DNA of 64,000 nt from Flavobacterium luteum (lineage in GTDB: Bacteria; Bacteroidota; Bacteroidia; Flavobacteriales; Flavobacteriaceae), in contig NZ_WAEM01000004.1 of the NCBI RefSeq assembly GCF_008806775.1, positions 62,001 to 126,000 of the forward strand, given 5' to 3'. This document shows positions 59,553-64,000 of this stretch, in pieces. Under the pieces are notes generated by a model that saw nothing but the letters and a program-made list of their open reading frames with translations, did not search any database and was not told the DNA's origin. Each line of letters opens with the position of its first letter. Position 1 is the first letter of the stretch. The position numbers and the translations under genes are program-made.

Positions 59553-60356
59553 ATGACAAACAAAATGATAAAAATTTCTATAGTTACCCCCTCATTTAAT
59601 CAAGGAAAATTTATTGAGGATGCAATTGAGTCTGTACTTATTCAAGATTATGCTAATTTTGAGCATATAATTATCGATGGATGTTCAACTGATAATACTA
59701 TTGAAGTTTTAAAAAAATATCCTCATCTTATTTGGGTTTCTGAAAAAGACGAAGGACAAAGCGATGCGTTAAATAAAGGGTTTAAAAAGGCTACAGGCAA
59801 TATAATCGGTTGGTTAAATTCAGATGACATGTATTTGCCCAATACATTTAAAAATGTTGTTCATGAGCTAACGGATATGCATGTTGATGCTGTTTACGGT
59901 AATTATAAGTTTATAGATTCCAACGGAAAAATCACTCGAGAATTGGTTACTCAGAACTCTAAAAAATGGATGTCTGTTTTTTATTGTTTCATACCTTCCA
60001 CTACTTTCTTCTTTAAACGTAAAATTATCGATCAAGGCATATTTATTGACAAATCGTTCCATATTGCAATGGATAAAGAATTTTTTTCTCATATTTATAA
60101 TTTAGGTTTTAAAATAAAGAAAGTAAATTCATTTTTTGCTCACTTTAGATGGCATGATAATAACAAATCAATTGATACAAATGAAGTAAAAGAAACTAGA
60201 CTTCTAGAAGGACTAGAAATTTTTAATAGATATACTTCGTTTAAATTACCCAAAAATAAATTTGGGCTTTCTGTTTATATATTTTTTATGAATATATGTG
60301 GCGTTTATAGAACTATTTCTAGGTTTTTAAAAATTGGTTTGTATGGTAAACAGTAA
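59553..60356 (+). CDS. Glycosyltransferase family 2
   Basis: A 267-residue GT-A protein with ISIVTPSFNQGKFIEDAIES, IIDGCSTDNTIEVLKKY, and a metal-binding WLNSDDMYLP (SDD). FRWHDNNKSID fits the later acceptor region. It adds a sugar to the repeat unit. An alternative start five codons in (MIKIS, 59565) is possible. It overlaps the next gene by 14 bp. Confidence 0.87.
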   Translation: MTNKMIKISIVTPSFNQGKFIEDAIESVLIQDYANFEHIIIDGCSTDNTIEVLKKYPHLIWVSEKDEGQSDALNKGFKKATGNIIGWLNSDDMYLPNTFKNVVHELTDMHVDAVYGNYKFIDSNGKITRELVTQNSKKWMSVFYCFIPSTTFFFKRKIIDQGIFIDKSFHIAMDKEFFSHIYNLGFKIKKVNSFFAHFRWHDNNKSIDTNEVKETRLLEGLEIFNRYTSFKLPKNKFGLSVYIFFMNICGVYRTISRFLKIGLYGKQ

Positions 60357-61674
60357 ATCTGAATTTATTAAAGATTTATTTAATAATTTAAATAGTAATC
60401 ATGTTGATTACTTTGTACTAGGGGAGTATAATAGTTTACCATTAAAAATAGAGAATAGTGATTTAGATATTATTGTTGATCCAACAGACGTTGAAACTTT
60501 TTTAAAAGTTTTATTTAATTTAATTTCTCAATATAATGTAAAAGTGGTTTCCAATTATACAAATAGTAATGCAAAATTTTACAGGTTGTTGTGTGAGTCT
60601 GACAACTATTGGGGACTACAATTAGATTTGTTTTGTAAAGGTTTTTATTTTCAATCAAAAGAGTATTTCCCCGTTAATCAATTAAAAAAAAATGTTTTGT
60701 TGTTCAATAACATTAAAGTTCTTGATTTAAAGAAAACATATTTTGTTGGTTTCTTAAAAGAAATTATTCATAATGGTTGCTCAAAAAAAAAGTATATTAA
60801 TGGATTTATTACTGAAGTGCTTTCAGATGAAATAAAATATAGAAAATTATTAACTGAACTCTATAGTGAAGAATTTACAAAAATTGTTTTTGATAATCTT
60901 TCAATAAATAGTCTTAAAAAAAAGACTAAAGAGCTTAGAAAAATTATGTTAAATAAAATATACAATGGAAAATCGATATTCTTAAAAAATACAATTGAAA
61001 GAATTAAAAATGCAAAAAGAGTATTTACTCCTCCAGGATATACAATTGTTTTTTTAGGAGAACAAAGTTCTCGAAAAAGATTAATCACTAGTATCATTCC
61101 AGTTTTAAATGAAGCTTTTTATAATAGTGTGTTTTATGAAAATAGTCGTCCCAATTATATTTATTCAAATAAAAAGAAAGCAAATAAAAACAATGATATT
61201 AAAGAGCTCGATTCTTTTTCAAAATCAAAAAAATCATTTTTTTTTATTAGTTCGCTATTTCGCTATTTCGATTATACCTTTGGATATTGGATAAAGATCT
61301 TTCCTAAAAAGGCCTTTAATTCCTGCGTGTGGATATTTGATGGTTACTATTATGATGGAATAATAAATCCCAAAAAAGGTAGATTGGCTTTGCCAAATTG
61401 GATTGTAAAAATTGGAGCACTACTAATACCTGAACCAGATTTAATAATATGTTTAGGGCAGAATACTGAATTTCAGAATAATCAAAAGACTAAATCAAAT
61501 GCGGAAGATATATATAAACAGAGTTATAAATTGTCAAAATTTTGCCTTCAACATAAACAAGCAGTTTGGATTAGTGCCGAATCTTCTTTAGAACAATCAG
61601 TAGATAGTGCAATGAAGTTTATTTCAGAAGTTATGGAAAAAAGGTTTGAAGTTATAAATCAGAATTATAATTAA
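60343..61674 (+). CDS. Nucleotidyltransferase/thymidylate-kinase-like fusion protein with a degenerate kinase P-loop
   Basis: A 443-residue protein, paralogue of the gene at 61951. The N-terminal nucleotidyltransferase-fold region carries NSDLDIIVDP (Asp40 and Asp42), keeping the metal-binding carboxylates. The C-terminal kinase-like region has GEQSSRKRL (239-247) where the neighbour has GTDGSGKST: the second Gly is Arg244 and the Ser is Arg246, so normal ATP binding is unlikely. The following FDR motif is FDG (Asp333-Gly334). Otherwise it aligns throughout, for example IFPKKAFNSCVWIFD and LLIPEPDLIICLG. The ATG at 60343 was chosen over a TTG at 60334. It overlaps the GT2 gene. Confidence 0.7.
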   Translation: MVNSKSEFIKDLFNNLNSNHVDYFVLGEYNSLPLKIENSDLDIIVDPTDVETFLKVLFNLISQYNVKVVSNYTNSNAKFYRLLCESDNYWGLQLDLFCKGFYFQSKEYFPVNQLKKNVLLFNNIKVLDLKKTYFVGFLKEIIHNGCSKKKYINGFITEVLSDEIKYRKLLTELYSEEFTKIVFDNLSINSLKKKTKELRKIMLNKIYNGKSIFLKNTIERIKNAKRVFTPPGYTIVFLGEQSSRKRLITSIIPVLNEAFYNSVFYENSRPNYIYSNKKKANKNNDIKELDSFSKSKKSFFFISSLFRYFDYTFGYWIKIFPKKAFNSCVWIFDGYYYDGIINPKKGRLALPNWIVKIGALLIPEPDLIICLGQNTEFQNNQKTKSNAEDIYKQSYKLSKFCLQHKQAVWISAESSLEQSVDSAMKFISEVMEKRFEVINQNYN

Positions 61675-61950
61675 AACATTTTATGAAAATATTAGTCAAA
61701 TAATTGTATATTGGTAAATGTAGCAAAAACAAAAAAAGTGATTCATCTAGGATGTCTTATCATTATAAATTTGCCTACTAATGCAAGATATAGGAAACTT
61801 AAGTTTAGTTTGATTTATAAATGTATTTAATTTTAGTGAATTATTTGGATTCAATCAAATAAAAATATATAAAAAATGCTTGAATATGTTTATTACAAAA
61901 TCTAAATATCACTTTCTTCTGAAAAACCAATTTTTTTTTAACTTTAAATA
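61675..61950. other. Spacer between the two paralogues
   Basis: A 276-bp AT-rich gap. It contains a six-codon start-stop frame at 61683 (MKILVK) that looks like a truncated glycosyltransferase start, and a further short open frame around 61738-61836 with nothing recognisable. It may be remnant sequence; no promoter match was found. Confidence 0.35.
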
Positions 61951-63261
61951 ATGACATTTTTACCTAATTTTTTTGAAACTCTCAACACAAAAAACATTCG
62001 CTATTGTGTACTTCGTAATTATCATCAATTACCTTATTCTACAGATGGAAGTGATTTAGATATATTAATTGATAAAAATGATTCATTTTTATTCTTATCA
62101 ATTTTGAATGAAACTTGTCAAAGTTATCAAGGCATGATTGTTTCATTTATTCCATCTGAAATTTGTCCAAGAATATGTTTACTTGGCATTGAAAATGGTG
62201 GATGGGGGTTAATGATAGATCTTCATTACAACCAAATTCAATATCGTGGCCACACGATTGTTACAAACCAAAATATATGGAAAAACACTTTTATTTATAG
62301 AGATAATATAAACGTGTTGAATCCTAGAGTAGATGCATTAATTGGATTATTCAAAGAATTATTAAATAATAAAACGTGTAAGCAAAAGTATTATGATGAT
62401 TTTAAAAAGTACTGTTTAAACGCAGAATTTTTAGATGAAATATTTGGAGTAATAAATAAGCAAAACATAAGTCAAATTTTAATGGAATATTTAGAAGTTG
62501 AATACTCAGAAAAAACAATAAAAAAACTAGCTAAACAATTAATCAAAGAGTTTCCTATTAAGAAAAATACTTTTTTCTATTATTTTGTTAAACTAAAACG
62601 AATAATAAAAAAACCTGGTTATACAATTGTCTTTTTGGGCACAGATGGTTCAGGTAAAAGTACTATAATTGAAACTTTAAAACCAGTTCTAAACGAAGCA
62701 TTTCATAAAGCAGTTTATTATGAACATTTGAGACCTAACAAATTTCCGAGTATTGCGCGCCTGTTGGGTAAAAAAGAGGAATTTAATGTGCCTGTTACAG
62801 AACCTCACAGTAAGAAACCTTCAGGGTTTTTAGGTTCATTATTTCGATGGGGTTATTATTTAATTGATTACACACTTGGATATGCATTGAAAATCTATCC
62901 TAAAAAAGCAATTCGCTCTTGTGTTTGGATTTTCGATCGTTATTATTATGATTATATAATTGACCCTAAGAGAGTTAGGATTAAATTGCCGAAAGTCATA
63001 TTAAAAATAGGACAAATAATTATACCCGAACCCGACATTATTTTATGTCTTGGTACAAATGCAGAAATTATTCATGAACGCAAACCTGAATTAGACTTGG
63101 GAGAAGTACATCGGCAAGTAACTGATTTGAAATTTTTTTGTAATTCTCATAAGCATGCTGTTTGGATTGATACAGGAACGAGTATTGAGGTATCTTCTGA
63201 TAATGCCCTTAAAGCTATAAGGGATATTATGGGAAAAAGATTTGAGTCAATTAAATTATAA
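61951..63261 (+). CDS. Nucleotidyltransferase/thymidylate-kinase-like fusion protein with intact P-loop
   Basis: A 436-residue protein. N-terminal nucleotidyltransferase-fold domain: YCVLRNYHQLPYS followed by GSDLDILID (33-41; carboxylates Asp35 and Asp37). The C-terminal domain from about 222 resembles thymidylate kinase: TIVFLGTDGSGKST with Walker A at 230-238, and FDRYYYDYIIDPKR (Asp329-Arg330), like the DR motif of nucleoside-monophosphate kinases. IIPEPDIILCLGTNAE is a later strand. The role in glycan synthesis is unknown; possibilities are phosphorylating a sugar or nucleotide precursor. It is the active-looking partner of the preceding gene. Confidence 0.75.
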   Translation: MTFLPNFFETLNTKNIRYCVLRNYHQLPYSTDGSDLDILIDKNDSFLFLSILNETCQSYQGMIVSFIPSEICPRICLLGIENGGWGLMIDLHYNQIQYRGHTIVTNQNIWKNTFIYRDNINVLNPRVDALIGLFKELLNNKTCKQKYYDDFKKYCLNAEFLDEIFGVINKQNISQILMEYLEVEYSEKTIKKLAKQLIKEFPIKKNTFFYYFVKLKRIIKKPGYTIVFLGTDGSGKSTIIETLKPVLNEAFHKAVYYEHLRPNKFPSIARLLGKKEEFNVPVTEPHSKKPSGFLGSLFRWGYYLIDYTLGYALKIYPKKAIRSCVWIFDRYYYDYIIDPKRVRIKLPKVILKIGQIIIPEPDIILCLGTNAEIIHERKPELDLGEVHRQVTDLKFFCNSHKHAVWIDTGTSIEVSSDNALKAIRDIMGKRFESIKL

Positions 63262-63750
63262 AATGGATATGAAATATCTTTATATACATTCATTTAATCT
63301 CTATTGGTTTAATTCCCCGAAGCTCTACTTCGATATAGGAAAGTTTGAAAACCTCGGTTTTCATAAAGCTAAAAATAAGTTCTTAGCCGATTAATACCTT
63401 GGTGGATCTGCCCCGAGGTAGTTTATTTCACAATTTTTTTTGGTATTGGTTAATAAACTATTTACAAAAAGCGCAAAGCATTCTAGTGATTTTTGAATAT
63501 CATAAACCTTTTGGATGTAATTAGTTTTTGATGATGATTTTTCATCAACTATAGTGATTTTCGATGGTAAACCGTATAGAAAATGAAAATTTTTTTCATT
63601 AAAAACGATTCTAGATACGTTTTTTGTTTCGTTTTATCGCAAACAAACACTCGAATTGACTTTTTTAATAATTACACCCAACGAGTTGAAAGATATAGAT
63701 TTTAATCTATAAAAAGCAATTAATAATTATTTAATAAATCATTTTAAATA
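63262..63750. other. Long non-coding region with three consecutive hairpins
   Basis: Most of this 489-bp region is AT-rich. At 63318-63419, three separate inverted repeats follow in a row: CGAAG/CTTCG (63318-63332), TGAAAACC/GGTTTTCA (63346-63363) and ACCTTGG/CCGAGGT (63396-63419). The GC content is locally higher. A 43-codon ATG frame (63263-63394) spans it and starts one base after the preceding stop, but its sequence follows the hairpin arms, so coding is doubtful. It may be the remains of a mobile element or an attenuator. Confidence 0.5.
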
Positions 63751-64000
63751 GTGATATATAATAAGTTTGTATATTTTCCTCCTAGAAGAAAGGAATATTT
63801 TTTTTCTTTAAAATTGATGCAAAAGAATAAGCGAATTTATTTTTTTTATTCTCCATTTACTTTAATAACTAAAATATTTTGGAAGCTACTATTGAATTCC
63901 AATTTTTTCCAATCATTTTTTACTTGTTCACAAAGTAATCTACCATCTTCCATTCAAACAATACTTAGATTATTAGATTCAAATGATGCAAAATTTCAAA
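63751..64000 (+). CDS. 5' end of an unidentified gene, truncated by the right edge
   Basis: The frame is open from a GTG at 63751 (preceded by an in-frame TAA at 63745-63747) to the window end, 83 codons. It includes FVYFPPRRKEYFFSLKLMQK and IYFFYSPFTLITKIFWKLLL. An internal ATG at 63817 is an alternative start, supported by a -7 match TAAGTTTG at 63762-63769. I do not recognise the family; the locus suggests glycan biosynthesis. Confidence 0.5.
   Translation, partial: MIYNKFVYFPPRRKEYFFSLKLMQKNKRIYFFYSPFTLITKIFWKLLLNSNFFQSFFTCSQSNLPSSIQTILRLLDSNDAKFQ

Follow-up and report, generated by a model that had tools for sequence, protein, structure and literature searches.

A mosaic nucleotidyltransferase with a degenerate kinase domain beside an intact relative in a probable exopolysaccharide locus of Flavobacterium luteum

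A glycan locus of Flavobacterium luteum carries, side by side, two genes for proteins in which a nucleotidyltransferase (NTase) domain is joined to a thymidylate kinase (TMPK)-like domain; one of the two has a kinase half with degenerate motifs, which raises the question of what this copy does. The window analysed here is a stretch of 64,000 nucleotides (contig NZ_WAEM01000004.1, positions 62,001 to 126,000 of the forward strand), and the two open reading frames (ORFs) are called A and B (Table 1). An initial annotation had read them as a tandem enzyme/pseudoenzyme pair. The pair is real and unusual; counts of motifs, the codon models and a simulation of the open frame support its enzyme/pseudoenzyme character, with the NTase kept, and the new point is the mosaic nature of A. 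As judged from motifs and alignments, A has lost its kinase active site, while its reading frame and its NTase active site were kept.

Both frames are open as initially annotated. The two proteins do align along their length, as had been proposed, with 37% identity (E 3.6e-80), far above chance, and a search of the genome (3.41 Mb, 41 contigs) returned A and B as the sole matches to the family. Each NTase half carries the three carboxylates of the pol-beta type, a DxD and a later D (D40/D42/D95 in A, D35/D37/D90 in B); these columns are invariant in two family alignments, and D37 of B is nearly invariant in another. The Pfam matches of the NTase half of A were all weak, and the structure match lists of the A and B models were filled by the kinase half. 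A sequence search of the PDB with B gave no match below E 0.1, and in PHROGs there was no match for A and only weak ones for B.

Table 1 Features of the A/B region in window coordinates. NTase, nucleotidyltransferase; TMPK, thymidylate kinase; aa, amino acids; pLDDT, predicted local distance difference test; MITE, miniature inverted-repeat transposable element.
Feature	Position	Strand	Basis
ORF A: NTase + degenerate TMPK-like domain, 443 aa (listed from TTG 60334; ATG 60343; stop ends 61674)	60343..61674	+	ORF list, alignment, model pLDDT 87.6
A residues 1-221: NTase + linker, 'GEY' lineage, catalytic residues kept	60343..61005	+	tree, breakpoint
A NTase motif S-D-L-D (D40, D42)	60457..60468	+	invariant in two family alignments
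A third NTase carboxylate D95	60625-60627	+	alignment
A residues 222-443: putative pseudokinase domain, open frame, fast branch, most likely of B's lineage	61006..61671	+	trees, fold match
A degenerate Walker A GEQSSRKRL	61057..61083	+	ORF list, sequence, alignment
A FDG instead of FDR (DRY) motif	61336..61344	+	sequence, alignment
ORF B: intact NTase + TMPK-like kinase, 436 aa (ATG 61951; stop ends 63261)	61951..63261	+	ORF list, alignment, model pLDDT 94.1
B NTase motif S-D-L-D	62050..62061	+	alignment
B Walker A GTDGSGKST	62638..62664	+	sequence, alignment
B FDR	62932..62940	+	sequence, alignment
A-B gap, 276 bases; no ORF of at least 100 aa; no promoter-pattern match	61675..61950	.	ORF list, pattern scan
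GT2 glycosyltransferase; 3' end overlaps the ATG start of A by 14 bases	59553..60356	+	PF00535 E 3.2e-28, sequence
Palindromic MITE-like element, ~185 bases, inverted ends TGTAATTA/TAATTACA, between B and the APH gene	63503..63687	.	genome matches, alignment
APH/choline-kinase-like gene start, 308 aa, extends to contig position 126677	63751..64000	+	L008:751-1677; PF01636 27.7 bits vs 23.2 cut-off; HGDCCPWN..DWE

The kinase halves differ sharply. That of B carries a Walker A motif of the form GxxxxGK[ST] and a DR(Y/F) motif (GTDGSGKST, FDRY), whereas A has neither (GEQSSRKRL, FDG). Alignment confirmed this contrast, already drawn in the initial annotation: the P-loop glycine, the Ser that binds Mg and the arginine of FDR are gone from the kinase half of A. 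That annotation had understated the losses: the LID arginine and one helical turn are missing too. Further changes (B numbering) are H259>N, D338>N, R341>K, R377>Q and E380>K, P285 and H286 are altered, and a four-residue deletion spans Y302-Y303. A one-residue deletion lies at the P-loop or directly after it, and the P-loop Lys of A counts as kept or lost according to where this gap is placed. Scored on the columns invariant in 16 near relatives, A keeps 10/10 in the NTase and linker; in the kinase half it keeps 12/15 hydrophobic and 17/33 polar columns, a contrast that is not significant alone (Fisher p = 0.11). Left out in turn, each of the 16 relatives keeps all the invariant columns of a class or misses one or two.

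No other family member examined shares this condition. Apart from A, all rows of the family alignment (84/84, counting B) retain the P-loop and the DR motif, six with P-loop variants (e.g. SPDGGGKST, or GKGT in locus L045), and so do 34 loci taken from genome searches without regard to motif (L022 and L120 coincide, and several of the 34 occur in the 84-row alignment too); loss of both kinase motifs was seen, among these aligned rows and loci, in no row other than A. The set of 80 loci, kept from one genome-contig scan with B and two relatives, was found mostly via an IFDRY pattern and is therefore biased against dead kinases. One relative (L048:3070-4518) has the NTase motif GDLAIL and is possibly the reverse case, with the NTase lost and the kinase kept.

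In the predicted structures, B residues 222-430 match dTMP kinases (4hdc, Z 19.2, root-mean-square deviation (rmsd) 2.7 over 183), and the model of A has the same TMPK fold (2plr, Z 15.6, rmsd 4.0 over 186), with a helix beginning at residue 241, directly after G239, and residues 281-298 below 50 pLDDT. With the fold kept in the model and the catalytic residues lost (16/33 invariant polar columns changed), the kinase half of A would rank as a pseudokinase.

The origin of A was traced with half-by-half trees built from the same 22 rows for the NTase plus linker half and for the kinase half. The NTase half of A clusters (support 100/99) with the 'GEY' rows, namely Fibrobacter L036, Xylanibacter L037, Paludibacteraceae L039 and Bacteroides fluxus L040, while its kinase half clusters with B, L024, L025 and L028 (93/92, and 91/91 in a second tree). 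In the approximately unbiased (AU) test the NTase half of A was rejected as sister of B's (p 8e-5), and likewise with B+L024 (p 8e-5) or with L025+L028 (p 2e-5); one clade of A and the four B-group rows was 47.8 log-likelihood units (lnL) worse (p 4e-4), and the same four rows without A were not rejected as a clade (p 0.28). Conversely, a kinase half of A placed with the four GEY rows was 36.7 lnL worse (AU p 0.001), these rows forming one clade by themselves in the best kinase tree (66/77). A-B sisterhood was rejected for the whole protein (AU p 0.006) and not for the kinase half alone (p 0.37), and the initial picture of simple tandem duplicates has to be given up. The best breakpoint falls after A residue 221, which is the domain border, with a score matched by 0/2000 column permutations. 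On these comparisons, A is a mosaic: its NTase comes from another lineage, to which its kinase domain is foreign; derivation of the kinase domain from B's lineage is favoured, not proven. The branch of A is ordinary in the NTase half (0.91, median 0.82) and long in the kinase half (1.39, median 0.41), and the long branch may mislead every kinase-half placement. A search of the phylum sample (394 genomes besides this one) gave no GEY-type NTase at E <= 1e-8.

Selection was examined with codon models on fixed trees, the omegas of which are rough. The NTase half of A fits the background omega of 0.035; omega = 1 is 4.9 lnL worse than the free fit, which itself (omega 0.008, at the length limit) is merely 0.4 lnL better than the equal one. 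This half is under ordinary purifying selection and evolves at the family's usual rate. In the kinase half, A has an omega of 0.28 versus 0.008, 3.45 lnL better than equal omegas (the equal fit being at the length limit); a shorter length limit raised the gain to 7.1 lnL, and the smaller value was adopted. Purifying selection on the degenerate copy, which the initial annotation had proposed to check, was found in the NTase half; in the kinase half omega = 1 was not rejected. Neutral drift was simulated from the kinase DNA of B, with an assumed 72% AT equilibrium and stops only being considered: 11/400 replicates were stop-free at 80% mean identity and 0/400 at 65% or below. Since the kinase halves of A and B are 48% identical (the branch of A making up 1.39 of the 1.75 path), the frame of A was held open across its divergence from B.

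The reading that we place first, with confidence slightly short of even, is that A and B are two NTases of different specificity relying on one active kinase. B is a complete two-domain enzyme, its NTase recognised by motif and its TMPK-like kinase by motif and predicted fold, and the kinase-fold domain of A would be a non-catalytic docking or structural part. A would work as an NTase of second specificity that borrows the kinase of B; this kinase and the adjacent APH-like one may carry out the phosphorylation step on which both proteins depend. More tentatively, the module (NTase-kinase, APH, GT4 glycosyltransferases and WecG-type GT26) might add a phospho- or nucleotidyl-linked group to a lipid-linked sugar in exopolysaccharide assembly; the NTase would pick the group or the acceptor, and the kinase would work on a common intermediate. 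Measured on one set of 22 rows, divergence in the NTase half is about double that in the kinase half (median end branch 0.82 vs 0.41), which is expected if the NTase sets specificity. A wider version, in which the family swaps NTase domains to alter the attached group and this strain has two specificities, with the kinase domain of A as docking adaptor for B's kinase, is rather less likely. One half switched off in a natural variant suggests that the NTase and kinase halves are separable, the A/B contrast tells the experimenter which half to assay in which protein, and A, if active, would offer a clean route to what the NTase attaches.

Several points weigh against two NTases sharing one kinase. 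The pair is present in one genome only, so that selection on A rests on one long branch. A position of its kinase half at the base of a ten-row clade holding the GEY rows (6.1 lnL, p 0.12) was not rejected, and the parent of this half is thereby not settled. The omegas are rough because synonymous sites are saturated and some fits lie at the branch-length limit, and omega = 1 was not rejected for the kinase half of A (lnL difference 1.06). The drift simulation covers the whole divergence from B, not the time since the active site was lost, and the relatives aligned for the model of A are active ones, whose fold may have been imposed on it. Among the neighbours, the APH gene clusters with that of an Algibacter locus (86/91), a clade with L024/L025/L028 not being rejected (p 0.26), a placement that is uninformative on which copy, A or B, the APH serves. 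The idea that the two domains of a fused 817-aa GT4 protein were co-inherited partners of A and B was unsupported: these domains cluster together (91/91), and L047 and L040, the latter one of the four NTase relatives of A, stand with them in a poorly supported set of long branches; the main GT4 groups of the parent lineages include neither domain.

Slow decay of A is the main, live rival, the finding resting on one genome, although we hold it rather unlikely. On that reading, A would have been acquired as a chimera and lost its kinase first, with too little time since then for the NTase half to decay, and B would do all the work. Its uniqueness among the loci and genomes searched and the unrejected omega = 1 of its kinase half are consistent with such a course, the mobile-element remnant and the long gaps around B suggest a disturbed locus, and the open frame may mostly predate the loss; yet this half is stop-free at 48% identity to B, where 0/400 neutral simulations were, and the NTase half fits the background omega with all its 10 NTase-plus-linker columns retained, behind a start that still overlaps the GT2 gene. 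TMPKs are dimers, and the initial annotation had thought of a heterodimer. A contact through the kinase domains, by which the dead site of A regulates or shapes the active one of B, would agree with the TMPK fold predicted for both and with hydrophobic columns better kept than polar ones (at p = 0.11), but the four-residue deletion of A lies in the long-helix stretch, and in the loci examined one complete gene is usual, so the family needs no pseudo-partner; we regard it as improbable. That the kinase half of A was changed rather than lost, towards an unusual phosphate loop or the binding of a phosphorylated product without catalysis, is very improbable, for although FD, the Tyr of YYYD, R261-P262, possibly the P-loop Lys and an open frame remain, the modelled helix starting at 241 directly behind G239 leaves little P-loop, and R377, E380 and Y302-Y303 are also gone.

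Enzyme/pseudoenzyme pairs are a general concept. A resembles their dead members in its lack of catalytic residues, its kept frame and predicted fold and the intact relative next to it, and differs from them in being a domain chimera whose other half has its own active site. dTMP kinase (PF02223, TIGR00041) is approached by B, with its P-loop and DR(Y/F), and by the TMPK fold predicted for both kinase halves, and 58/61 family members match PF02223 at E <= 0.01. Unlike dTMP kinase, B stays below the curated cut-offs (24 vs 27 bits for PF02223, 24.8 vs 83.25 for TIGR00041), has its kinase behind an NTase domain in glycan loci, and carries family residues such as YxHxRP, PH and YYxxDYxxGY. An excerpt of PMC4275268 treats thymidylate kinase as ordinary pyrimidine metabolism.

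The glycan phosphotransferases of the LicD/NTase fold share with the pair an NTase-type domain within a glycan locus and, in the excerpts cited here, a precedent in capsule linkers: CpsC, a LicD-family member of the NTase superfamily, is reported to act as transition transferase in a capsule linker (PMC11666461), and in fungi LicD domains are a mark of the Mnn4 family of phosphomannosylation proteins (PMC5681524). These precedents, as far as the excerpts go, make the addition of a phospho- or nucleotidyl group by the module plausible and are no test of it; the same excerpts mention no fused kinase in LicD-type systems. Among the 24 Pfam families matched by the 61 members at E <= 0.01, LicD (PF04991) was not found, which leaves room for a distant relation, and the NTase-type matches were weak (DUF4269 and NTP_transf_5, one member each). 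The APH/choline kinases (PF01636, PF01633), for which LicA is the comparison protein, are represented by the neighbouring gene, above the PF01636 cut-off; this gene is the putative partner and not a counterpart of the pair, and in some relatives it forms one ORF with the NTase-kinase. No named function for the NTase-TMPK family was found in the open-access literature searched, and the family may be described outside it.

The NTase-TMPK family is widespread; its members in glycan loci are often fused to an APH-like kinase or lie next to one. The contig titles of the 80 loci name Bacteroidota, Fibrobacter, several proteobacteria, Verrucomicrobia, Planctomycetota-type organisms, Firmicutes and a cyanobacterium, among others, and two members (L035, L064) lie on contigs titled archaeal metagenome-assembled genomes (Jingweiarchaeum, Argoarchaeum). 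A hidden Markov model (HMM) search of these loci (ORFs of at least 80 aa, flanks up to 6 kb, shorter at contig ends) gave one family match in 78/80, two in L100, where NTase and kinase are encoded by adjacent genes, and none in L103, which a contig end truncates. Paired homologues, which the initial annotation had envisaged in other glycan loci, did not turn up: a second full copy was present in 0/80 loci, and the tandem pair in 0/397 other genomes of the genus sample and in none of the other genomes searched. The pair is unique among them, which is half of what the annotation would have counted as a refutation; the other half, a lack of selection, does not apply to the NTase half of A, which is under purifying selection.

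Counting the genome of the pair each time, B as query found the family in 11/397 genomes of the family sample and 20/398 of the genus sample, and A in 5/395 of the order sample and 4/149 of a family sample. The 19 other genus genomes have a form with an open frame of ~730-900 aa, the size of the APH-NTase-kinase fusion that is complete in L013. The halves also occur as separate genes, in L100 as said and as kinase-only genes in L019, L044 and L072. In genome G388, ~8 kb separate a full gene from a kinase-only one; this locus (L116, G388:C1:616001-636000) looks rearranged, with ORFs that are transposase-like by eye, the full NTase-kinase on one strand and the kinase-only gene and an APH on the other. 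Six plasmid records hold a relative, the matched gene being annotated 'hypothetical protein', and one match also overlaps a 'glycosyltransferase'.

The surrounding polysaccharide genes bear out the glycan locus of the initial annotation. Upstream of A lie genes for a flippase-type protein, a pyruvyl transferase, a GT4, a hexapeptide transferase, a Wzy_C match below cut-off and a GT2, and the order Wzy-like, GT2, NTase-kinase, with an overlap, recurs in L009/L030. Downstream, the APH-like gene at the window edge, which often accompanies the family and was absent from the initial annotation, is followed by a fused double GT4, another GT4, a WecG-type GT26 and an initiating sugar transferase, and then by polysaccharide-export and chain-length-type proteins (read from sequence). 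This gene content makes an exopolysaccharide locus very probable. The double GT4 (L008:1674-4127) is a GT4 doubled in frame to 817 aa, with domains 30% alike; in the relatives that were mapped, the GSEPG-type GT4 is single.

In 33/80 loci, HMM and motif together identify an APH-like gene (HGDxxxWN..D(W/F/L)E) on the stretch covered, a count from which proteins without the HGD..N motif, also taken by the iterated APH HMM, were excluded. By motif and length it is present in 22/27 of the loci L024-L050 (L042, omitted for its length, is among the 33), and it shares one ORF with the NTase-kinase in L013, L015, L018, L021 and L023. Recurring neighbours in 13 mapped loci, not all in each, are a GSEPGxGW GT4, a PPPVHGAAMVG GT4 and a GT26-like protein (the last two by eye).

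A Bacteroidota-type promoter pattern had no match in the A-B gap and 11 matches in the whole window, against 7.9 expected. The MITE-like element behind B is one of three long copies seen in the genome, the others lying at C11:402778-402976 (77%, L118) and C1:28981-29169 (71%, L119). A short second repeat stands just 3' of B (window 63335-63428) and matches C33:260848-260942 with 76% identity. Locus L117 (G000:C37:203001-212000) contains many 7-base (AACTTCT) and 109/123/205-base tandem repeats among small ORFs, and was matched 17 times, over 51-66 bases each, in the search with the window element.

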